IMG/VR virus record: IMGVR_UViG_3300027800_000351
Location: 1-28,552 of that record
Strand: one strand, 5' to 3'
Length of the DNA stretch: 28,552 nucleotides
Source of the DNA: a virus
Position 1 is the stretch's first letter. Every line of letters starts with the position of its first letter. The notes beneath the pieces are model-generated. The model saw only the letters and a program-made list of their open reading frames with translations. It was not told where the DNA came from and made no database searches. The position numbers and the translations under genes are program-made. Shown piece after piece: positions 8,086 to 16,717 of the stretch.

Positions 8086-9027
8086 TTAGGCAGTCAGATG
8101 AGCGAACGGATACCGGGTAGCGCTGTCGCTGTTCACCCAGTTGATCGGGTTCGGCAGTGCGAAACCGAGACGCATGGTCATCATGATCGCGGCCATCCGT
8201 TGCTGGAGCAGGTTGTAGAGAATGTTCCCCGCGGCATCCTGAATGATGCCCTCAGTGAACACTTCAAATTCCATATCCTGACGCATGGCGTACACCAACT
8301 GCGACCAGTCACCCACGATCAGCGGGTAGGTGGCAGAACCGGCTCCGTTGAGCGGGAAGTAGATCGGTGAACCGTCCAGGTTGTACTGGGCAGCAACAGC
8401 CGGATCCTTGGTGAAAATCGGCTGACCTTCACTGTCACGGCATCCGCGCAGTTTGCCCTTCATGGTCAGGGCACCAATCGCGCCGGTCACACCAAACCCG
8501 TCCACTTCAACCTTCGAGAACACACCCGATTCGCCAAGGATGGCGTCATACAGGTCAGGGAACCCGGCAATGGATACGTTGTGAGCAGCGGCCAGAGACG
8601 CGGTGACAATCGCGGTCGGCCAGGCAGCCGGTTTATTGGTGCCGTACAGAATCGCGTTGTCGATGGCTTTACCGGCAGCGGTCGCCAGAATCGGCTTGAC
8701 CGAGTCCCACATCGGAATCCGGGCATCGTTGAGCACGTTCTTCGGGATGGGAACTAAAACCGCCAGGTCTTTTGCATAAACTTTGACGTTTTCCCAGTTG
8801 GTTTCCGTGGTCTGTACCAGACCGGTGTCACCATCCGGGAAGTAAGCGGTGGCCAGCGCACTCAGCACCGGCATATCATTTTCGTACACGGTCATATCCC
8901 GCAGCCGGCGTCCGAGACGCATCACATGACTGGATTCGTTGGCAACCGTGTTAATCAGTTCCAACGAGGTTTCTACGGGGATGGTACCGGCTGCATCAGT
9001 CCGGTTGATTACATTGTCATAAGGCAT
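8086..9027 (-). CDS. Major capsid protein, HK97 fold
   Basis: A 313-residue protein following the scaffold gene. It has the layout of HK97-type capsid proteins: an N-terminal arm with NTVANESSHVMRLGRRL, an E-loop-like strand pair with ETNWENVKVYAKDLAVLVPIPKNVLND (the conserved strand that precedes the spine helix), the spine helix DSVKPILATAAGKAIDNAILYG, and the A-domain with LIVGDWSQLVYAMRQDMEFEV. It forms the icosahedral shell. No protease gene is seen beside it, and the N-terminus is short, which fits a separate scaffold. Ribosome site GAGGAGT precedes the ATG. Confidence 0.92.
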   Translation of the reverse strand: MPYDNVINRTDAAGTIPVETSLELINTVANESSHVMRLGRRLRDMTVYENDMPVLSALATAYFPDGDTGLVQTTETNWENVKVYAKDLAVLVPIPKNVLNDARIPMWDSVKPILATAAGKAIDNAILYGTNKPAAWPTAIVTASLAAAHNVSIAGFPDLYDAILGESGVFSKVEVDGFGVTGAIGALTMKGKLRGCRDSEGQPIFTKDPAVAAQYNLDGSPIYFPLNGAGSATYPLIVGDWSQLVYAMRQDMEFEVFTEGIIQDAAGNILYNLLQQRMAAIMMTMRLGFALPNPINWVNSDSATRYPFAHLTA

Positions 9028-9041
9028 AATTCACACTCCTC

Positions 9042-9602
9042 TTAACCTTTAACTCCGGCTTGATTCCGAATGAAGGTATCCATCGAAAACGCCCCGGCAT
9101 TATTGCCCGCACCATTTCCCCCATTTCCCTTTGCGGGTGGGGGTTTTTGCGGTTCTGCGAACAGCTCAGGGAACTGCTCCTTGAGTTTCTTGAAATCCGT
9201 TTTGCCGTCATCACCGATCAGTTTTGCGTCCTGCGCCGCAATCCACGCCAGCCGTGGGTTTTTGACCCCGATCTCCGGAGCCATGGCCGACTCATAAAAC
9301 TGATTCTGACGCTCAACCATACTGAGTTTGTCGGCCAACTGGGTCAACTGGGTTTGCGTCTGGCTTCCCGCCTCTGCGCTTTTAGCCAGGTTTCTCACCT
9401 GTTTTTCCAGATCCGCCCGTGTGGACCGCTCAGTATCCAACGCGTTTTTCAACCCATGCGTATGGGTTTCATAAAGTTGCTTGACAGCATCATCCTGTTT
9501 GGATAACCAGGCCTCGAAGCCAGCAGGTTGCTGTTGTTGATTTTGCTGCTGCTGTTTTTGCTCATCATTTTGTTGCTGTTGCTGATTGTTTCCGTCCGGC
9601 AT
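9042..9602 (-). CDS. Capsid scaffolding protein
   Basis: A 186-residue acidic and glutamine-rich protein just before the major capsid gene. The first 25 residues are almost all Q and N. A coiled coil follows at about 45-115 (TERSTRADLEKQVRNLAKS, LADKLSMVERQNQFYESA). The C-terminal third holds FKKLKEQFPELFAEPQKPPPAKG, a Gly/Asn linker, and a short terminal helix (SMDTFIRNQAGVKG) of the kind that binds capsid subunits. This is the usual design of dedicated scaffolds that shape the procapsid and leave. Ribosome site GGAGG precedes the ATG. An ATACTGAGT site lies inside. Confidence 0.88.
   Translation of the reverse strand: MPDGNNQQQQQNDEQKQQQQNQQQQPAGFEAWLSKQDDAVKQLYETHTHGLKNALDTERSTRADLEKQVRNLAKSAEAGSQTQTQLTQLADKLSMVERQNQFYESAMAPEIGVKNPRLAWIAAQDAKLIGDDGKTDFKKLKEQFPELFAEPQKPPPAKGNGGNGAGNNAGAFSMDTFIRNQAGVKG
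9319..9329. promoter_or_regulatory. ATACTCAGTAT-like site 4
   Basis: ATACTGAGTTT preceded by CC, so the opposite orientation to most sites. It is inside the scaffold gene. Confidence 0.5.
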
Positions 9603-9610
9603 CTCGCCTC

Positions 9611-10018
9611 CTACTTCCGTCGCTTAATCGTGATGGGCGTCTCACCCTCTACGACCTCAAACCGTCCCAATGTTTTCCGTGCCCAGTTGTCGTGTTCCTT
9701 CATCGTGGTGACCAGTTCACCGAGAATTTTGCGGTCCTCGGCCCGTTGTTCATCCTGGGCAGTCTGCATTTTTGTGAAATAGGCTCTCCAGACCTCGTCC
9801 CGTTTATCCTGTGCCAGTTCGCGCTTGGTTTGCTCTGCGCTTTCCCAATCGCGCTGGGTCTGGCGTTCTTTTTCCCTCAGCGAATTTTGTTTGGTCAGCC
9901 AGTCGGTGAATTCCTTCCAGCCTTTGTACAAACCAATCCCAAGCAGGGAAATGACCAGCACGATGATTGCGATAATGGTGAATTGCAGCCAGATACTGGC
10001 TGGTGGCAGTGCGCTCAT
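9611..10018 (-). CDS. Membrane-anchored coiled-coil protein (spanin- or holin-accessory-like)
   Basis: A 135-residue protein with one membrane segment at about 12-32 (FTIIAIIVLVISLLGIGLY) followed by a long charged coiled coil (residues about 45-115, rich in E, K, Q and R). The ATG overlaps the holin-like stop (TAATG), so the two are translated together. A single N-terminal anchor plus a long coil resembles inner-membrane spanins (Rz), but no partner lipoprotein is seen. Its place between the portal block and the scaffold is unusual for lysis genes. A role in lysis is a guess. Confidence 0.7.
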   Translation of the reverse strand: MSALPPASIWLQFTIIAIIVLVISLLGIGLYKGWKEFTDWLTKQNSLREKERQTQRDWESAEQTKRELAQDKRDEVWRAYFTKMQTAQDEQRAEDRKILGELVTTMKEHDNWARKTLGRFEVVEGETPITIKRRK

Positions 10019-10398
10019 TATTTCGGATCTCCACTGCCCGCAGTGAACGGTAACCGGCTGCCGTATAATTCCTTGGCTGTATCAACAATCCGCCCGCCTA
10101 AACTCGCGACCACTGCCAGCCAGGCTAACCAGCTCACCATATTCCCTGCCAACATGCCGTACTCCGGTCCCAGAATGGCCTCACTCGCCAGCCGGGCAAG
10201 GACAACAAATCCCAGCCAGCCGATCAGCATCGGCAGGACCATGACACGGTAAAAATCTGCCAGTTTTCTCCAGGCAAATTTCTTCTGGCGGACCGCCAGC
10301 GCACAGGCCAGCAGCACCTGCAGAGCGATCAAACCGATCAATGCGGCAATCTGCGGACCAATAACAGTTTTGATAACGTCTAACGATAACCAACTCAT
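10018..10398 (-). CDS. Small multi-pass membrane protein, holin-like
   Basis: A 126-residue protein with three likely membrane segments (about 12-36 IGPQIAALIGLIALQVLL, 55-75 MVLPMLIGWLGFVVLA, and 86-108 LAGNMVSWLAWLAVVA), a size and layout common in phage holins. The start at 10398 follows GGAGGGC; an upstream extension would read through the leader terminator and is rejected. It is the first gene of the head/tail operon, directly behind the leader hairpin at 10417-10478. The lysis role is inferred and no endolysin is in view. Confidence 0.75.
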   Translation of the reverse strand: MSWLSLDVIKTVIGPQIAALIGLIALQVLLACALAVRQKKFAWRKLADFYRVMVLPMLIGWLGFVVLARLASEAILGPEYGMLAGNMVSWLAWLAVVASLGGRIVDTAKELYGSRLPFTAGSGDPK

Positions 10399-10416
10399 AC
10401 GCCCTCCAAACAGTAA

Positions 10417-10478
10417 GTTAAAAACAAAAACCGCCCGACACACATCTGTGCATCTTGGGCGGTAAACTCCAAATTCCC
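10417..10478 (-). terminator. Leader terminator/attenuator A, upstream of the head/tail operon
   Basis: On the minus strand the leader holds GGAGTTTACCGCCC (10470-10457), then a stem closing CCGCCC (10462-10457) on GGGCGG (10436-10431), then TTTTTGTTTTTAAC. This is a complete intrinsic terminator placed 20 bases before the ribosome site of the first gene and about 91 nt from the start codon to the predicted transcription start. The same box and the same U-rich tail recur in leader B (16054-16119). Confidence 0.75.
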
Positions 10479-10489
10479 TATTCAGTTAT

Positions 10490-10500
10490 ATACTCAGTAT
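10490..10500. promoter_or_regulatory. ATACTCAGTAT site 5 (exact, on a promoter)
   Basis: Exact palindrome in the intergenic region, overlapping the -10 box of the head/tail promoter. Confidence 0.65.
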
Positions 10501-10527
10501 AACATGGGCTGTAAGGGATGTGTCCAA
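10490..10527 (-). promoter_or_regulatory. Promoter of the head/tail operon overlapping a palindromic site
   Basis: On the minus strand TTGGAC (10527-10522) is followed 20 bases later by an extended -10, TGTTATACT (10504-10496 region). The spacer is long for a classical pair, so the extended -10 probably matters most. The 11-base palindrome ATACTCAGTAT at 10490-10500 overlaps the -10 box, which would let a bound repressor block polymerase. Confidence 0.55.
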
Positions 10528-10549
10528 TTATGATCCTAATCTCATTCCC

Positions 10550-10579
10550 TTGAGCCTCCCTTGCCCCCCGTGCTATACT
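10550..10579 (+). promoter_or_regulatory. Promoter of a short plus-strand RNA
   Basis: TTGAGC (10550-10555), an 18-base spacer, and TATACT (10574-10579) preceded by TG at one base distance (TGCTATACT). It is back to back with the minus-strand head/tail promoter. There is no open reading frame between it and the terminator 55 bases on. Confidence 0.6.
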
Positions 10580-10585
10580 GATCTC

Positions 10586-10662
10586 GTCTCTTGTTTCAGC
10601 AGCGTCTCTGTCCTGAGATCTCCTTTGTCGGTCGGGCAGCTCCCCAGGCTGCCCTTTTTTTT
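10586..10662 (+). ncRNA. Candidate small regulatory RNA of about 75 nt
   Basis: A promoter at 10550-10579 and a strong intrinsic terminator at 10634-10662 bracket a short stretch with no ATG-started frame. No plus-strand gene lies upstream, so the terminator has no other obvious client. Bases 10618-10630 (ATCTCCTTTGTCG) are complementary to Shine-Dalgarno sequences and could form 12 pairs, with one bulged U, with the recT ribosome site (24979-24990). GATCTC at 10580-10585 and GAGATC at 10615-10620 form an inverted repeat, the left arm of which is at the predicted transcription start. RNA existence is inferred from signals only. Confidence 0.5.
10634..10662 (+). terminator. Intrinsic terminator of the candidate small RNA
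   Basis: GGGCAGC (10634-10640), a 7-base loop, and GCTGCCC (10648-10654) form a perfect 7-bp stem followed by eight T. The T-run exists only on the plus strand. Confidence 0.85.
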
Positions 10663-10723: not shown

Positions 10724-10752
10724 TTGTATATATCACGCTAACGTGATATTAT
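10724..10752 (+). promoter_or_regulatory. Promoter of the plus-strand helix-turn-helix island
   Basis: TTGTAT (10724-10729) and TATTAT (10747-10752) are separated by exactly 17 bases. The spacer holds the palindrome listed at 10730-10749. The first ribosome site (AGGAGG, 10771-10776) follows 19 bases after the -10 box, giving a leader of about 20-25 nt. Confidence 0.65.
10730..10749. promoter_or_regulatory. Operator palindrome in the promoter spacer
   Basis: ATATCACG and CGTGATAT form perfect 8-base arms around CTAA. It fills the spacer and touches the -10 box, the classical place for repression. The likely ligand is the regulator encoded just downstream, or another phage repressor. Confidence 0.7.
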
Positions 10753-10781
10753 AGATACATCAAACAAATAAGGAGGAATGA

Positions 10782-11002
10782 ATGAAACAGCTTGACGAAG
10801 AAGATAAAGCACGGACGGACGGCATGGATTTTTAACAACCGCTGAGGTAGCCGCGCTGTTGGGTATAACAGACTCAGGAGTACGGCGAATGGTCCTGACC
10901 GGAAAATTACCCGCAAAGAGAGTTGGTAAGCGACTGCTGCTTATCAAACGAGCGGACCTGGTAGGGGTGCAGCGGAGCAAAGCAGGGAGACCGAAGAAAT
11001 AA
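10782..11002 (+). pseudogene. Excisionase-type helix-turn-helix protein, split by a -1 frame change
   Basis: An ATG at 10782, with AGGAGG five bases before it, opens MKQLDEEDKARTDGMDF and stops at TAA 10833. The -1 frame then reads on from the same T-run: LTTAEVAALLGITDSGVRRM, then GKLPAKRVGKRLLLIKRADL, then SKAGRPKK, ending at TAA 11000. This is a clear MerR/excisionase-type winged helix-turn-helix (TAEVAALLGI-S-VRRM-GKLPA-RVGKRLLI). The break is at TTTTT (10829-10833), where Phe-tRNA could slip from TTT to TTT before the stop. It may be programmed slippage, a real one-base loss, or a homopolymer sequencing error. The full product would be 73 residues and probably controls the nearby promoters. 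Confidence 0.8.
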
Positions 11003-11047
11003 AGCAACCTTCCCCGCACCTGGGGATATACGCGAATAGGAGTAACA

Positions 11048-11254
11048 ATGGAAATTTTATGGCAGGCTTTTTTGGACTTGATTCTTGTCGGTCATGTGAC
11101 TGACGAGACACGGGATGCTGCAAACACACAGGCGGTTTGCGGTACAAAGGACGAACAAACCATCGATATGCTCCGGGCCGTGGCCGGTTCGACCGACCAG
11201 ATGACCATGGAAGATTTTATTTTTGTGATCAAAAGTTTAGCACAGGAGGAATAA
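11048..11254 (+). CDS. Small acidic protein of unknown function
   Basis: A 68-residue protein, second in the plus-strand island. It begins MEILWQAFLDLILVGHVTDE and ends FIFVIKSLAQEE, with an acidic middle (DEQTIDMLRAV and DQMTMEDF). AGGAG lies 7 bases before the ATG, and its stop directly abuts the next ATG, so the three island genes are probably one operon. No family is recognised. The helical, acidic look would allow a regulatory or inhibitory partner role, but nothing shows it. Confidence 0.7.
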   Translation: MEILWQAFLDLILVGHVTDETRDAANTQAVCGTKDEQTIDMLRAVAGSTDQMTMEDFIFVIKSLAQEE

Positions 11255-11692
11255 ATGCCAAACACCATCGCGACCATCAAAGTTTCATTCGTTGGATTGA
11301 TTTTGCTGGCTGTGGCGGTGTTAATTTTGCCAATCGCACAAACCGCCGCGTGGGATATATCCATGCAAAGCGAACTCAATGCAGTGTTTGCTGCGCTCCC
11401 CGGAGTCATCCAGCACGAACACGCTGTGATTAGACACGGCACAGACGCCGAGGCAATCCGGGATACGTTGTGCAAAACCGGCGCGTACCAAACTTGGCGC
11501 ACTAAAGACAACAAATATTTTAACATCTGCCAGCTCCCCGATGGCCGCTGGGGGTTTCAGATCATGGTACAGGATGCAGCCCGGAAATGGCACGAGGTAA
11601 CGGCGTTTGTCAAAGGTAATGGTTCATGGAGCGAACTGGTTTCCTATCTGATCCGCAACGGCGCGGCAAAGTGGACAGGCGTTATCAAATAA
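11255..11692 (+). CDS. Membrane-anchored or secreted protein of unknown function
   Basis: A 145-residue protein with an N-terminal hydrophobic segment at about 9-30 (VSFVGLILLAVAVLILPIA) that could be an anchor or a signal peptide. The rest is soluble in look, with two Cys (about 73 and 88), a YFNICQLPDGRWGFQI strand pair and a basic C-terminus. AGGAGG precedes the ATG, which directly follows the upstream stop. It closes the plus-strand island before the terminator at 11715. If the island is expressed in a lysogen, this could be an envelope-changing protein such as a superinfection-exclusion factor, but that is speculation. Confidence 0.72.
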   Translation: MPNTIATIKVSFVGLILLAVAVLILPIAQTAAWDISMQSELNAVFAALPGVIQHEHAVIRHGTDAEAIRDTLCKTGAYQTWRTKDNKYFNICQLPDGRWGFQIMVQDAARKWHEVTAFVKGNGSWSELVSYLIRNGAAKWTGVIK

Positions 11693-11714: not shown

Positions 11715-11740
11715 CCCCCGGTTTTCCGGGGGATTTTTTT
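11715..11740 (+). terminator. Intrinsic terminator of the plus-strand island
   Basis: CCCCCGG (11715-11721), loop TTTT, and CCGGGGG (11726-11732) are followed by A and seven T. It lies between the convergent ends of the island and the MuF gene and has no T-run on the minus side. Confidence 0.9.
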
Positions 11741-14092: not shown

Positions 14093-15475
14093 TTATCCCT
14101 GATAACTGTTCGCGCTGCGGACAACAGCGTGGGTCAAATCTTCAAACGCACCGGCTGCCGCGTCCATGATGTCATCGTGCGGCAGTTCCGGCTGTCCGTG
14201 CATGTGGGTCAGAAACCGCTCATTCCATGCGCCCGGCAGCAGATACACGTTGCCCGTCTCGGTCTGGGTGGCCAGCGGTTTGGCTCGCACCAGTTTGTCC
14301 TGGTTGGACGCGATCCCCTTGGCATCAATCCCCGCCATTCGCTTGGTCATTCGCCAGCTCTCCCGCTTGCCAGCGCTCCCCGGCTCCTGCTCCCACCTGG
14401 ACAAATATTGCCGCTTTTCCAGCTTGCACCGCGCCGCGTCCTGCCGGGTGATGTTTTCGTAATAGCTGTCAATCTTGCTGGGCGGCAGTTGTTCAGCGGT
14501 CACATCCAGCACATAAAAAACACCGTCCGCTTTGAGCATCAAACAACTGGCCGTGTAATCCGGGTCGGATTTGTTGAGCTGCTTTTCCGTCGCGGCAAAG
14601 TCCCAACGCCGGCACACCACGCCACCGGCAGGGATGGAATCGGCAACCCTGAACCACGCCCGGTTGAAAACTTTGCCCGCCGCGGGCTTGATTTTCCAGT
14701 TTCCACCTCTGGCGCTGTCCCCCAACAGCCGTTCACGGTCCACCAGTGGCAATGATCGCAGGTTCGCCAGGTAACCCGGGTTGCTGGCCAGCAGCACTTT
14801 ATTGTCAAACACGGTCGCAGGGATGAACGTCACCGACAACGCGCCGCAGTCCACACCGAACCGCGTTTCTATTTCATCCCTGGAATCACCCCAGTACAGG
14901 TCATCCCCTCGCCGGACCATCCAGCGCACCTGTCCAGCACGGGATAGATCCGCGTAACCGTCCTCCGCAATCCACCAGCTCAAAAAGTCGGCCAGCCAGC
15001 CCGGCTCCGGGTTGCAGCTCGCCCGGATGTAGGGCCGCACGCCGCACATGGTTCTGTTTCGGCTGAGCATATAGAAAAATTGATGTTGGGTAAACGTTTC
15101 CAGCTGGTCGAATTCGATCAGCGCAATCTGCGCCCCGCGCCAGTCTGTCACCGTGTCCTCGTGCTGCAGGTGCGCAAACGATACCCGCATCCCGCTCGGA
15201 AAACGCCAGTACAGGTCTCCCTTTACATCCCGCCCGTTGAGCTGGGAATAGATTCGCTTGCTCTCATCCCACAGGCCGCCTTCGTTGGTTATCTCCGGAT
15301 ACGAACGCCGGAATATGACCGCGCCAAAATTGCCGTTGCTCATGTGTCTCAACGGTTCAATCAGCAGGGACCATGTTTTTCCACCGCCCGCGCTCCCGCC
15401 GTAGATGGCGATATCAGCCGGGGTGGATAAAAACTGCTCTTGCCGTCCTGCCTGGGGACGGATGCTGTCACTCAT
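14093..15475 (-). CDS. Terminase large subunit
   Basis: A 460-residue DNA packaging motor. The ATPase part has Walker A GGSAGGGKT at 26-34, Walker B-like IALIEFDQ at 117-124, and the coupling motif region ASCNPEP at 152-158. The RNase H-like nuclease part has RRWDFAATEK (first acidic site), DPDYTASCLMLKADGVFYV (second) and HDDIMDAAAGAFEDL near the end (third). Length is normal for the family. It cuts concatemeric DNA and drives it through the portal. Its ATG overlaps the end of the small subunit gene by 8 bases. Confidence 0.95.
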   Translation of the reverse strand: MSDSIRPQAGRQEQFLSTPADIAIYGGSAGGGKTWSLLIEPLRHMSNGNFGAVIFRRSYPEITNEGGLWDESKRIYSQLNGRDVKGDLYWRFPSGMRVSFAHLQHEDTVTDWRGAQIALIEFDQLETFTQHQFFYMLSRNRTMCGVRPYIRASCNPEPGWLADFLSWWIAEDGYADLSRAGQVRWMVRRGDDLYWGDSRDEIETRFGVDCGALSVTFIPATVFDNKVLLASNPGYLANLRSLPLVDRERLLGDSARGGNWKIKPAAGKVFNRAWFRVADSIPAGGVVCRRWDFAATEKQLNKSDPDYTASCLMLKADGVFYVLDVTAEQLPPSKIDSYYENITRQDAARCKLEKRQYLSRWEQEPGSAGKRESWRMTKRMAGIDAKGIASNQDKLVRAKPLATQTETGNVYLLPGAWNERFLTHMHGQPELPHDDIMDAAAGAFEDLTHAVVRSANSYQG

Positions 15476-16040
15476 GTGGCTCCCCTGGTAACTCAGGTTT
15501 TGGGGTATCCCGCTGGTTATCCGGCATGTACAAAACTACCTGAGGGGTTTTCACGTCCTCTACCCGGTCGGTAAACAGCCCATGCGCCCGGCCAATCTGG
15601 ACCAGTGCGCCCTGGGCGTCGTACATCTCCAGTTTTGGATTCCCGGAGCGGTCATAGGTCAGCGATTTGATCAGATACCCGCGCTCCCGGACTGCCTGAA
15701 AATTGACCTTGACTGTCTCCCCCATGACTGGATTGCCGGCACTATCCAGCACTGGTTTTCCGCGCCGGTTCAGCGGTATTTGCTCGATGGTGATGAAATC
15801 TGCCAGGTTGCCCCGCGCCATCTGTGTCAGGCGCACCAGTGCCTCATCCGTCTGCATCTGGATGGATCTCATCCGCTCGTCAATCGCCGTTTTAATATCC
15901 GGATTTTTGACCAGCCGGGCACCCAGGTTGTCAGCGTGCCTGAACCCCGCTTTCCGCGCCGCGTCGCAGGCGTTCCAGCTTTGAAGATAATATTCGATAA
16001 ATAACTGCTGCCTGTTCGTCAACCCTTTTGGCCTTACCAC
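15468..16040 (-). CDS. Terminase small subunit
   Basis: A 190-residue DNA-recognition subunit. It begins VRPKGLTNRQQLFIEYYLQ, followed by WNACDAARKAGF (helix-turn-helix) and ARLVKNPDIKTAIDERM, the typical opening of the Terminase_2 family. The C-terminal half is more variable, with a Pro-rich tail (PDNQRDTPKPELPGEPHE) that is likely the large-subunit contact. The start is GTG 16040, with GAGGT 5 bases upstream; an ATG four bases before it is in another frame. It is the first gene behind leader B, so its expression is likely attenuated by the same device as the head/tail operon. Confidence 0.92.
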   Translation of the reverse strand: MVRPKGLTNRQQLFIEYYLQSWNACDAARKAGFRHADNLGARLVKNPDIKTAIDERMRSIQMQTDEALVRLTQMARGNLADFITIEQIPLNRRGKPVLDSAGNPVMGETVKVNFQAVRERGYLIKSLTYDRSGNPKLEMYDAQGALVQIGRAHGLFTDRVEDVKTPQVVLYMPDNQRDTPKPELPGEPHE

Positions 16041-16053
16041 TCATACCTCTATC

Positions 16054-16119
16054 GTTAAAAACAAAATCCCGGCGCATTCCATTTCTGGCTATACGCCGGG
16101 CGGTAAACTCCGGAATCCC
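16054..16119 (-). terminator. Leader terminator/attenuator B, upstream of the terminase operon
   Basis: On the minus strand GGAGTTTACCGCCC (16111-16098) runs into a stem of CCCGGCG (16100-16094) with CGCCGGG (16074-16068), then ATTTTGTTTTTAAC. Box and U-tail are identical to leader A over 14 and 13 bases, while the stem and loop differ. It ends only 14 bases before the start codon of the terminase small subunit. Confidence 0.78.
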
Positions 16120-16136
16120 AATATGTGATTAACTCT

Positions 16137-16185
16137 ATTATACCAACCCCTGTCAGGGTGTTCCCACTTAAGACTCTACGGGAAC
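16137..16185 (-). promoter_or_regulatory. Promoter of the terminase operon with upstream palindromes
   Basis: On the minus strand a perfect -10 (TATAAT, 16142-16137) is extended by TGG. The -35 place is occupied by GGGAAC, one arm of an inverted repeat GTTCCC (16185-16180) and GGGAAC (16165-16160). A second palindrome, CCCTGACAGGG (16158-16148 region), lies between. A strong -10, a poor -35 and upstream dyads suggest dependence on an activator or control by a repressor. Predicted start near 16130 gives a 90-nt leader. Confidence 0.65.
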
Positions 16186-16213: not shown

Positions 16214-16474
16214 TCATGCTAAACAATTATGATCATAATTTGTTTCATCACCCTGCTTCTTGATTTCTGCAAGTTTCCCCCGCAGATCAACGTTCCCATC
16301 AGGAGAACAAGTGGCAATCAAAACAAGTTTTCCAAACATTTTTATGTTATCGTCATCGTTGAATCCATTTGTGATAACAATATTCTGATCGTCAAAAACA
16401 TAGGTTGTTTTCCCATGCTGCACCGCCATTTTCTTTGCACTTTCAAGCGCGAGAAGATAATCGCTATCATTCAT
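16214..16474 (-). CDS. Small protein of unknown function
   Basis: An 86-residue protein that begins MNDSDYLLALESAKKMAVQHG and includes the strand pair TTYVFDDQNIVITNGF, then LVLIATCSPDGNVDLRGKL. Its ATG overlaps the preceding stop (ATGA). It is the last gene before the terminase leader. The coding end contains a perfect 16-base palindrome AATTATGATCATAATT (16225-16240), whose half recurs near the other leader. No family is recognised. Confidence 0.7.
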   Translation of the reverse strand: MNDSDYLLALESAKKMAVQHGKTTYVFDDQNIVITNGFNDDDNIKMFGKLVLIATCSPDGNVDLRGKLAEIKKQGDETNYDHNCLA

Positions 16475-16686
16475 TCATGTACCTCCACATTTACCATCGT
16501 TTTCAGCAGCTGTTCCAGCGCCCGGTCAGAGACCGAGTAGTAAAACGGCTCCCCGCAATTTTTACAGCGCCCGCGGGCTTCACGCAATATCAACCCACCA
16601 TATTCAAACAGCTCGATTTTATCCACAATTATGGCCCGGCCCAGTTCGTTTCCACATCGTTTGCATCTGATAATTTCTTCTGCCAT
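16471..16686 (-). CDS. Small zinc-ribbon protein
   Basis: A 71-residue protein starting MAEEIIRCKRCGNELGRAII and containing a second knuckle GRCKNCGEP, so two CxxC pairs 33 residues apart that could bind one zinc. It is Com-like in outline (the Mu Com protein is a small zinc-binding translational activator), but nothing else supports that job. ATG 16686 is chosen because GAGGT lies 5 bases upstream. The C-terminal VEVHE is written by GTGGAGGTACAT, the ribosome site of the next gene. An ATACTCAGTAT-like site lies just upstream (16718-16728). Confidence 0.75.
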   Translation of the reverse strand: MAEEIIRCKRCGNELGRAIIVDKIELFEYGGLILREARGRCKNCGEPFYYSVSDRALEQLLKTMVNVEVHE

Positions 16687-16717
16687 AAAATACCTCATTT
16701 TCAGTTCGGACTTTTAC

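Follow-up and report, generated by a model that had tools for sequence, protein, structure and literature searches.

A short plus-strand promoter-terminator unit beside a conserved late leader RNA, and a proposed zinc-protein late switch, in an uncultured tailed phage

Most of what is known of late antitermination in phages comes from the Q proteins of lambdoid phages, with a few further cases. The Q protein of lambda is loaded at a DNA site, and in lambdoid phages the Q gene lies just upstream of the late promoter. Antitermination by overlap of hairpins is the principle of the BglG systems, and Ogr and Delta are small zinc proteins with which phages activate late promoters. Hairpin overlap also underlies ANTAR antitermination, in which the RNA motif consists of two small hairpins (PMC3369931). 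In HK022, the leader RNA put suppresses termination without a phage protein (PMC9378689), and Com, a small zinc protein of phage Mu, recognises a motif located in the loop of an RNA hairpin (PMC6483171). A zinc protein acting as late antiterminator was not found in the literature searched.

The window analyzed here is the whole stretch of 28,552 nucleotides of IMGVR_UViG_3300027800_000351. It is contained in IMGVR_UViG_3300027719_000019 (37,689 bases) and is 100% identical to it wherever compared. The longer record adds an integrase and a repressor-like gene, which mark the phage as temperate. By terminase, the nearest named relatives lie in Ornatilinea apprima and a further Anaerolineales genome. 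At the O. apprima locus (L093, strain P3M-1), a zinc gene, a leader of the second class described below, and TerS form one module; thus, Anaerolineae are the likely hosts. No cultured member of this phage group was found in the phage collection. Between 10,550 and 10,662, the plus strand carries a short unit with the following features.

10550-10579, plus strand: extended -10 promoter, with TTGAGC (10550-10555), an 18-nt spacer, and TGC before TATACT (-10 element, 10574-10579).
10634-10662, plus strand: intrinsic terminator, with a stem-loop at 10634-10654 and eight T at 10655-10662.
10586-10662, plus strand: predicted short transcript of about 77 nt, its start placed from the -10 element.

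The promoter matches the consensus at 9 of 12 positions, plus the TG. A sigma-70 match alone is at chance level here (3 found and 2.9 expected in 3.5 kb); extended -10 sites of the form TGNTATANT number 4 in the window, against 1.13 expected. The terminator stem, GGGCAGC...GCTGCCC, has seven Watson-Crick pairs, or eight if one G-T is counted, and is one of only two strong short-loop terminators within the window. The 28.5-kb window was searched for TGNTATAMT followed by a strong terminator within 30-110 nt. Exactly three units were found (+10571, -10504, and -16145), while 299 of 300 dinucleotide shuffles contained none and the remaining one contained a single unit. The pairing of extended -10 and terminator is far above the shuffles; the plus-strand unit is therefore real as a sequence feature.

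In these respects the region is as the original prediction described it, with an extended -10 at 10574-10579 followed shortly by a perfect 7-bp terminator with eight T, the distance from the -10 element to the stem being 54 nt. No plus-strand gene leads in from the left, where 10018-10443 is encoded on the minus strand. A start codon was said to be missing between promoter and terminator, which holds for ATG and GTG but not for TTG, of which there are two, neither with an evident ribosome site. The unit thus has its own promoter and intrinsic terminator without a coding region, as expected of a candidate small RNA. The predicted RNA of about 70-77 nt folds at -21.7 kcal/mol (z -1.5); most of this stability comes from the terminator, with little structure elsewhere.

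The original prediction took this free-standing short transcript to be a candidate phage small RNA. The transcript is predicted by the sequence far above chance, but a small-RNA function gained no support, either as an Rfam match (none of the covariance models scored above its gathering score) or as a target signal. The unpaired part of the RNA paired with the translation starts of the phage no better than shuffles did (equalled in 60%), and pairing of the whole RNA with the divergent leader likewise did not exceed that of shuffles (17%). No match was found among 50,697 phage records, and nothing of note in 396 Anaerolineae genomes; a 39-nt match in one of these genomes lies inside a coding gene and was rejected. 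The sole other copy of the unit is the identical stretch of the same phage in the 37,689-base record. That the unit is a genuine trans-acting small RNA with no tie to the late leader is considered unlikely: the strong promoter-terminator pair speaks for it, as does its unpaired, pyrimidine-rich 5' part, a potential partner of ribosome sites, but the pairing stays at shuffle level, the RNA belongs to no Rfam family, and no independent copy by which to judge conservation was found among the phage records or Anaerolineae genomes.

The divergent promoters proved to be the valuable part of the original interpretation. The minus-strand one belongs to a conserved regulatory leader. The two other units of the window are both on the minus strand, the one at -10504 being divergent to the plus-strand unit. 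GGAGTTTACCGCCC and a U run at the end are common to both, and late genes follow directly behind each. They are referred to as leader B (-10504) and leader A (-16145).

10496-10504, minus strand: extended -10 of leader B, TGTTATACT.
10454-10473, minus strand: antiterminator-type hairpin of leader B, TTTGG[AGTTTACCGC]CCAAG.
10420-10463, minus strand: terminator of leader B, stem ACCGCCC...GGGCGGT and T run, with a 10-nt overlap with the hairpin.
10021-10401, minus strand: putative membrane protein without family match, predicted as the first gene read from leader B.
9611-10018, minus strand: gene following the membrane protein.
9042-9602, minus strand: scaffold-like protein of the leader B operon, role putative.
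8086-9027, minus strand: major capsid protein of the leader B operon (Pfam).
16137-16145, minus strand: extended -10 of leader A, TGGTATAAT.
16096-16113, minus strand: hairpin of leader A, CCGG[AGTTTACCGC]CCGG.
16057-16100, minus strand: terminator of leader A, CCCGGCG...CGCCGGG, ATTTTGTTTTT, overlapping the hairpin.
15468-16040, minus strand: terminase small subunit (TerS), first gene behind leader A, followed by TerL, portal, and minor head protein.
16471-16698, minus strand: zinc-ribbon protein of 75 aa, proposed antiterminator.

Scaffold and holin-like roles in the leader B operon are presumed.

The same leader is present in other phages. A scan of 2.9 million viral contigs returned 22 stretches, nearly all with one plan: an extended -10, 12-50 nt, a AAUAGGGA-like box, GGAGTTTACCGCCC, a terminator, and a start codon. 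Within the leader is a short hairpin with the loop AGUUUACCGC, the 3' arm of which overlaps the 5' arm of the terminator. Among relatives found through the terminase, the leader occupies the same two places in L020 and L022 and lies between terminase and portal in L005. Since the first scan had fixed GGAGTTTACCGCCC, two further scans were made with GCCC left open; every match in leader context had GCCC or AGCC, and the rest were without promoter or terminator. In total, 31 copies in about 25 phage contigs were tabulated; many contigs are partial and several leaders are near-copies, and independent phage lineages number perhaps ten to fifteen. The genes behind the leaders encode TerS, portal, scaffold, capsid-protease, and membrane protein (named by eye from translations unless a family search gave a match). 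Two copies, L137 and L138, have no evident promoter close to the leader.

Several candidates were set aside. The hits L133 and L171-L186 (except L182) have no promoter or terminator, lie in coding-like DNA, and were attributed to chance. The leader model gave only weak scores in the 396 Anaerolineae genomes, which were rejected. E-values of model R1 are rough. No leader was found in cultured phages, and none of the Rfam covariance models matched it above the gathering score. At its 5' end, a few nucleotides before GGAG, the class-1 leader RNA has a strongly conserved box, (AAU)AGGGA. In the window it is found on the minus strand near 10480 and 16120, and it pairs with nothing obvious; possibly it is a second contact for protein or polymerase.

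The hairpin of the first class has the form NNNGG-[AGUUUACCGC]-CCN'N'N'. The bases outside GGAGTTTACCGCCC, fixed by no scan, covary: the first pair appears as C-G, U-A, or U-G, and the second as C-G, G-C, U-A, or U-G. A copy found without the scan pattern, CCAG...CUGG, differs at both bases of a pair fixed in that pattern. With identical arm pairs counted once, the 20 distinct ones of the two classes have 90 of 100 stem positions paired, against 72.5±3.0 when arms are swapped, and 90 was reached in none of 20,000 trials. Some leaders have only 3 perfect pairs. In all of the 31 leaders the conserved hairpin shares the terminator's 5' arm, the 3' arm of the hairpin lying within it by 3-10 nt (for G399a the script picked an over-long terminator, and the proper one was taken from the descriptor scan); hairpin and terminator thus exclude each other. 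A descriptor scan of 2.1 Mb gave 27 distinct sites, each of them a leader, and none in reversed DNA. It misses some weaker copies, leader B included, because four pairs and six T were required.

The most widely shared protein in all reading frames of 18 leader-bearing phages is a zinc ribbon of 70-110 aa, present in 14; the 4 without it are partial contigs of 5-13 kb. At 13 loci the zinc gene lies directly upstream of the late promoter with its leader terminator, its stop codon being 17-64 nt before the leader hairpin. In the present phage, one 86-aa gene stands between the zinc gene and leader A, and in G406, G410, G415, G400, G402, and G405 the zinc gene is at least 1.5 kb from the leader. 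A narrow alignment scan with the zinc protein added four more phages, one of them (L217) with a clear leader of the second class. No leader follows directly behind four zinc genes from the last scan (L207, L208, L210, and L213), L012 has the zinc gene with a hairpin of another kind, and a relative of the zinc gene in another Anaerolineae genome (L220), with no leader behind it, was rejected.

Apart from generic zinc ribbons, no known family was matched by the leader RNA or the zinc protein. Searches of Pfam, PHROGs, and NCBIfam with the protein gave generic zinc-ribbon matches only, with no Q or antiterminator family, and neither a CAT nor an ANTAR domain was indicated. The Com family was not matched either (E up to 1 in Pfam, and 0.1 in PHROGs and NCBIfam), although for such very short proteins distant kinship is possible. 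Cultured phages contained no convincing relative. The structure model is confident (pLDDT 88.9); its comparison with the PDB gave no useful match, which is not evidence for a new fold. In L131 (176-514) and L022 (before 8679), the zinc-ribbon gene just ahead of the TerS leader encodes an additional helix-turn-helix tail, KSYGEIAxxLxxPRxxVWRxFQ, joined to the ribbon.

A diverged zinc protein is found in L217 and in the terminase relatives without a class-1 leader (L006-L010, L027). Directly behind its gene are a promoter, a hairpin with the loop UUUCCRC (also UUCCGC and AUCCGC), and an overlapping terminator, which define the second class. On the protein tree the loop classes require one change (support 93/94), and loop class is confounded with phage kinship. 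One reading is that the zinc protein recognises the hairpin loop, AGUUUACCGC in the first class and UUUCCRC in the second, and switches on several late operons at once, RNA and protein having diverged in matched pairs and thereby possibly giving switches without cross-talk; we lean toward this reading, with slightly less assurance than toward the late switch itself. In the second-class leaders of L006, L007, L009, L010, L027, and L217, a GCGG box lying upstream is complementary to CCGC of the loop and could base-pair with it. The box and the loop change together in L217, GTGG with CCAC being a matched change; thus, the class-2 hairpin may be a pseudoknot.

From gene order, covariation, and terminator overlap, the intergenic region 10420-10662 is probably a late-gene control region of this temperate phage, in which the zinc protein would hold the leader hairpin, block the terminator, and open the late operons. 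A leftward host-type extended -10 promoter would start the leader RNA, which would stop after about 65 nt at the intrinsic terminator unless the N3GG[AGUUUACCGC]CCN'3 hairpin formed. Late in infection, the zinc-ribbon protein (16471-16698) may bind the loop, stabilize the hairpin, and prevent the terminator, and polymerase could then enter the operon of membrane protein, scaffold, and capsid. Because of gene position and the matched RNA and protein classes, leader A before TerS (16057-16113) would be switched on together with leader B. Loop reading by a zinc protein has a precedent, since Mu Com does so (PMC6483171).

The minimum-energy folds of leaders A and B form the terminator, as would be expected of a switch needing help to turn on, and the leader RNA alone should therefore be off. 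This argues against late leaders that are put-like or ligand-dependent, with termination controlled by the hairpin itself or a host factor and the zinc protein having another job. The HK022 put RNA does suppress termination without a phage protein (PMC9378689), and the conserved AAUAGGGA box is left without an explanation; however, the gene order and the matching of loop classes with protein classes favour the zinc protein, and we judge such leaders to be improbable, somewhat more so than a small RNA acting in trans. Another target in the late region, or binding to DNA, is also conceivable for the zinc protein. As a DNA-binding activator of late promoters, it would leave only fine-tuning to hairpin and terminator. 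Ogr and Delta give this idea its precedent, but no common sequence was seen by eye upstream of the -10 of the leader promoters, near-consensus extended -10 sites should need no activator, and the conservation sits in the transcribed hairpin, which together make it very unlikely.

The proposed zinc-protein antitermination resembles the lambda Q/pR'/tR' arrangement in its late promoter, short leader RNA, intrinsic terminator, and protein gene just upstream. Unlike in lambda, the leader has a covarying RNA hairpin in overlap with the terminator and stands before several late operons; the protein is a zinc ribbon of 70-110 aa with no match to Q. As in BglG/LicT (RAT) and ANTAR, a hairpin sharing the terminator's 5' arm excludes the terminator, with protein stabilization being proposed here. 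It differs from BglG/LicT in that no CAT RNA-binding domain was found and in concerning phage late genes rather than metabolism, and from ANTAR in its single covarying hairpin, with a loop of 10 or 7 nt, between promoter and terminator. HK022 put is likewise a phage leader RNA element acting against termination, as proposed here, but it belongs to early operons and needs no protein, whereas the present leader has terminator overlap and a linked protein gene. Unlike Com, which activates mom translation, the zinc protein has no Com family match and is proposed for transcription antitermination. If true, uncultured tailed phages would provide a further kind of late switch, built on an RNA hairpin and a very small zinc protein. 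Matched RNA-protein pairs for reading a recognition code would become available, as would compact parts for transcription control and a late-operon marker in uncultured phages.

The plus-strand unit is related to leader B through its promoter.

10494-10518 and 10557-10581: 25-nt inverted copies, 80% alike, containing the -10 elements of both divergent promoters.

Neither the window nor the 37,689-base record contains this pair of 25-mers a second time. As a copy of the whole late leader the unit was rejected, since only this promoter core is common and there is no hairpin; the descriptor scan detected no conserved leader hairpin of either class in it. With the hairpin absent, the unit should not respond to the zinc protein. 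The rightward, inverted and diverged promoter copy would make a short plus-strand RNA ending at its own terminator, and this would stay a dead-end or small RNA of about 75 nt, with or without the zinc protein. Most economically, the unit is viewed as an inverted late-promoter copy with a transcript shortened by the terminator, which may serve as an insulator or attenuated leader of the adjacent cassette or as a small RNA.

To the right of the unit lies a plus-strand cassette (10778-11692) with an HTH_17 protein and two small genes, absent from phages with leader B at the same place. The unit may insulate or attenuate this cassette, its terminator keeping the 10550 promoter out of 10778-11692. 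We regard this as a real possibility that falls short of an even chance, ahead of the small RNA acting in trans. It fits with the position of the unit directly before the cassette, with a second terminator at 11715-11732 that closes it, and with the lack of the cassette at the same place in L020 and L022; conversely, no conserved antiterminator hairpin precedes the plus-strand terminator, and relatives of the cassette genes were not found.

The cassette is preceded on the plus strand by a good promoter of its own at 10724-10752 (TTGTAT-17-TATTAT). Its spacer is occupied by a perfect inverted repeat, ATATCACG-CTAA-CGTGATAT (10730-10749), which looks like an operator for an autoregulated cassette. 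The excisionase-like HTH_17 frame (10778-11003, plus strand) has no start codon of its own. The ATG at 10782 opens a 17-aa frame that stops at a run of five T (TTT TAA), and the HTH_17 frame continues in -1; the break is identical in both records, pointing to a mutation that shifted the frame or to -1 slippage on the T run. The 145-aa protein at 11255-11692 (plus strand), for which relatives outside this phage were not found, has an N-terminal hydrophobic segment, and its gene is possibly a moron gene closed by the 11715-11732 terminator.
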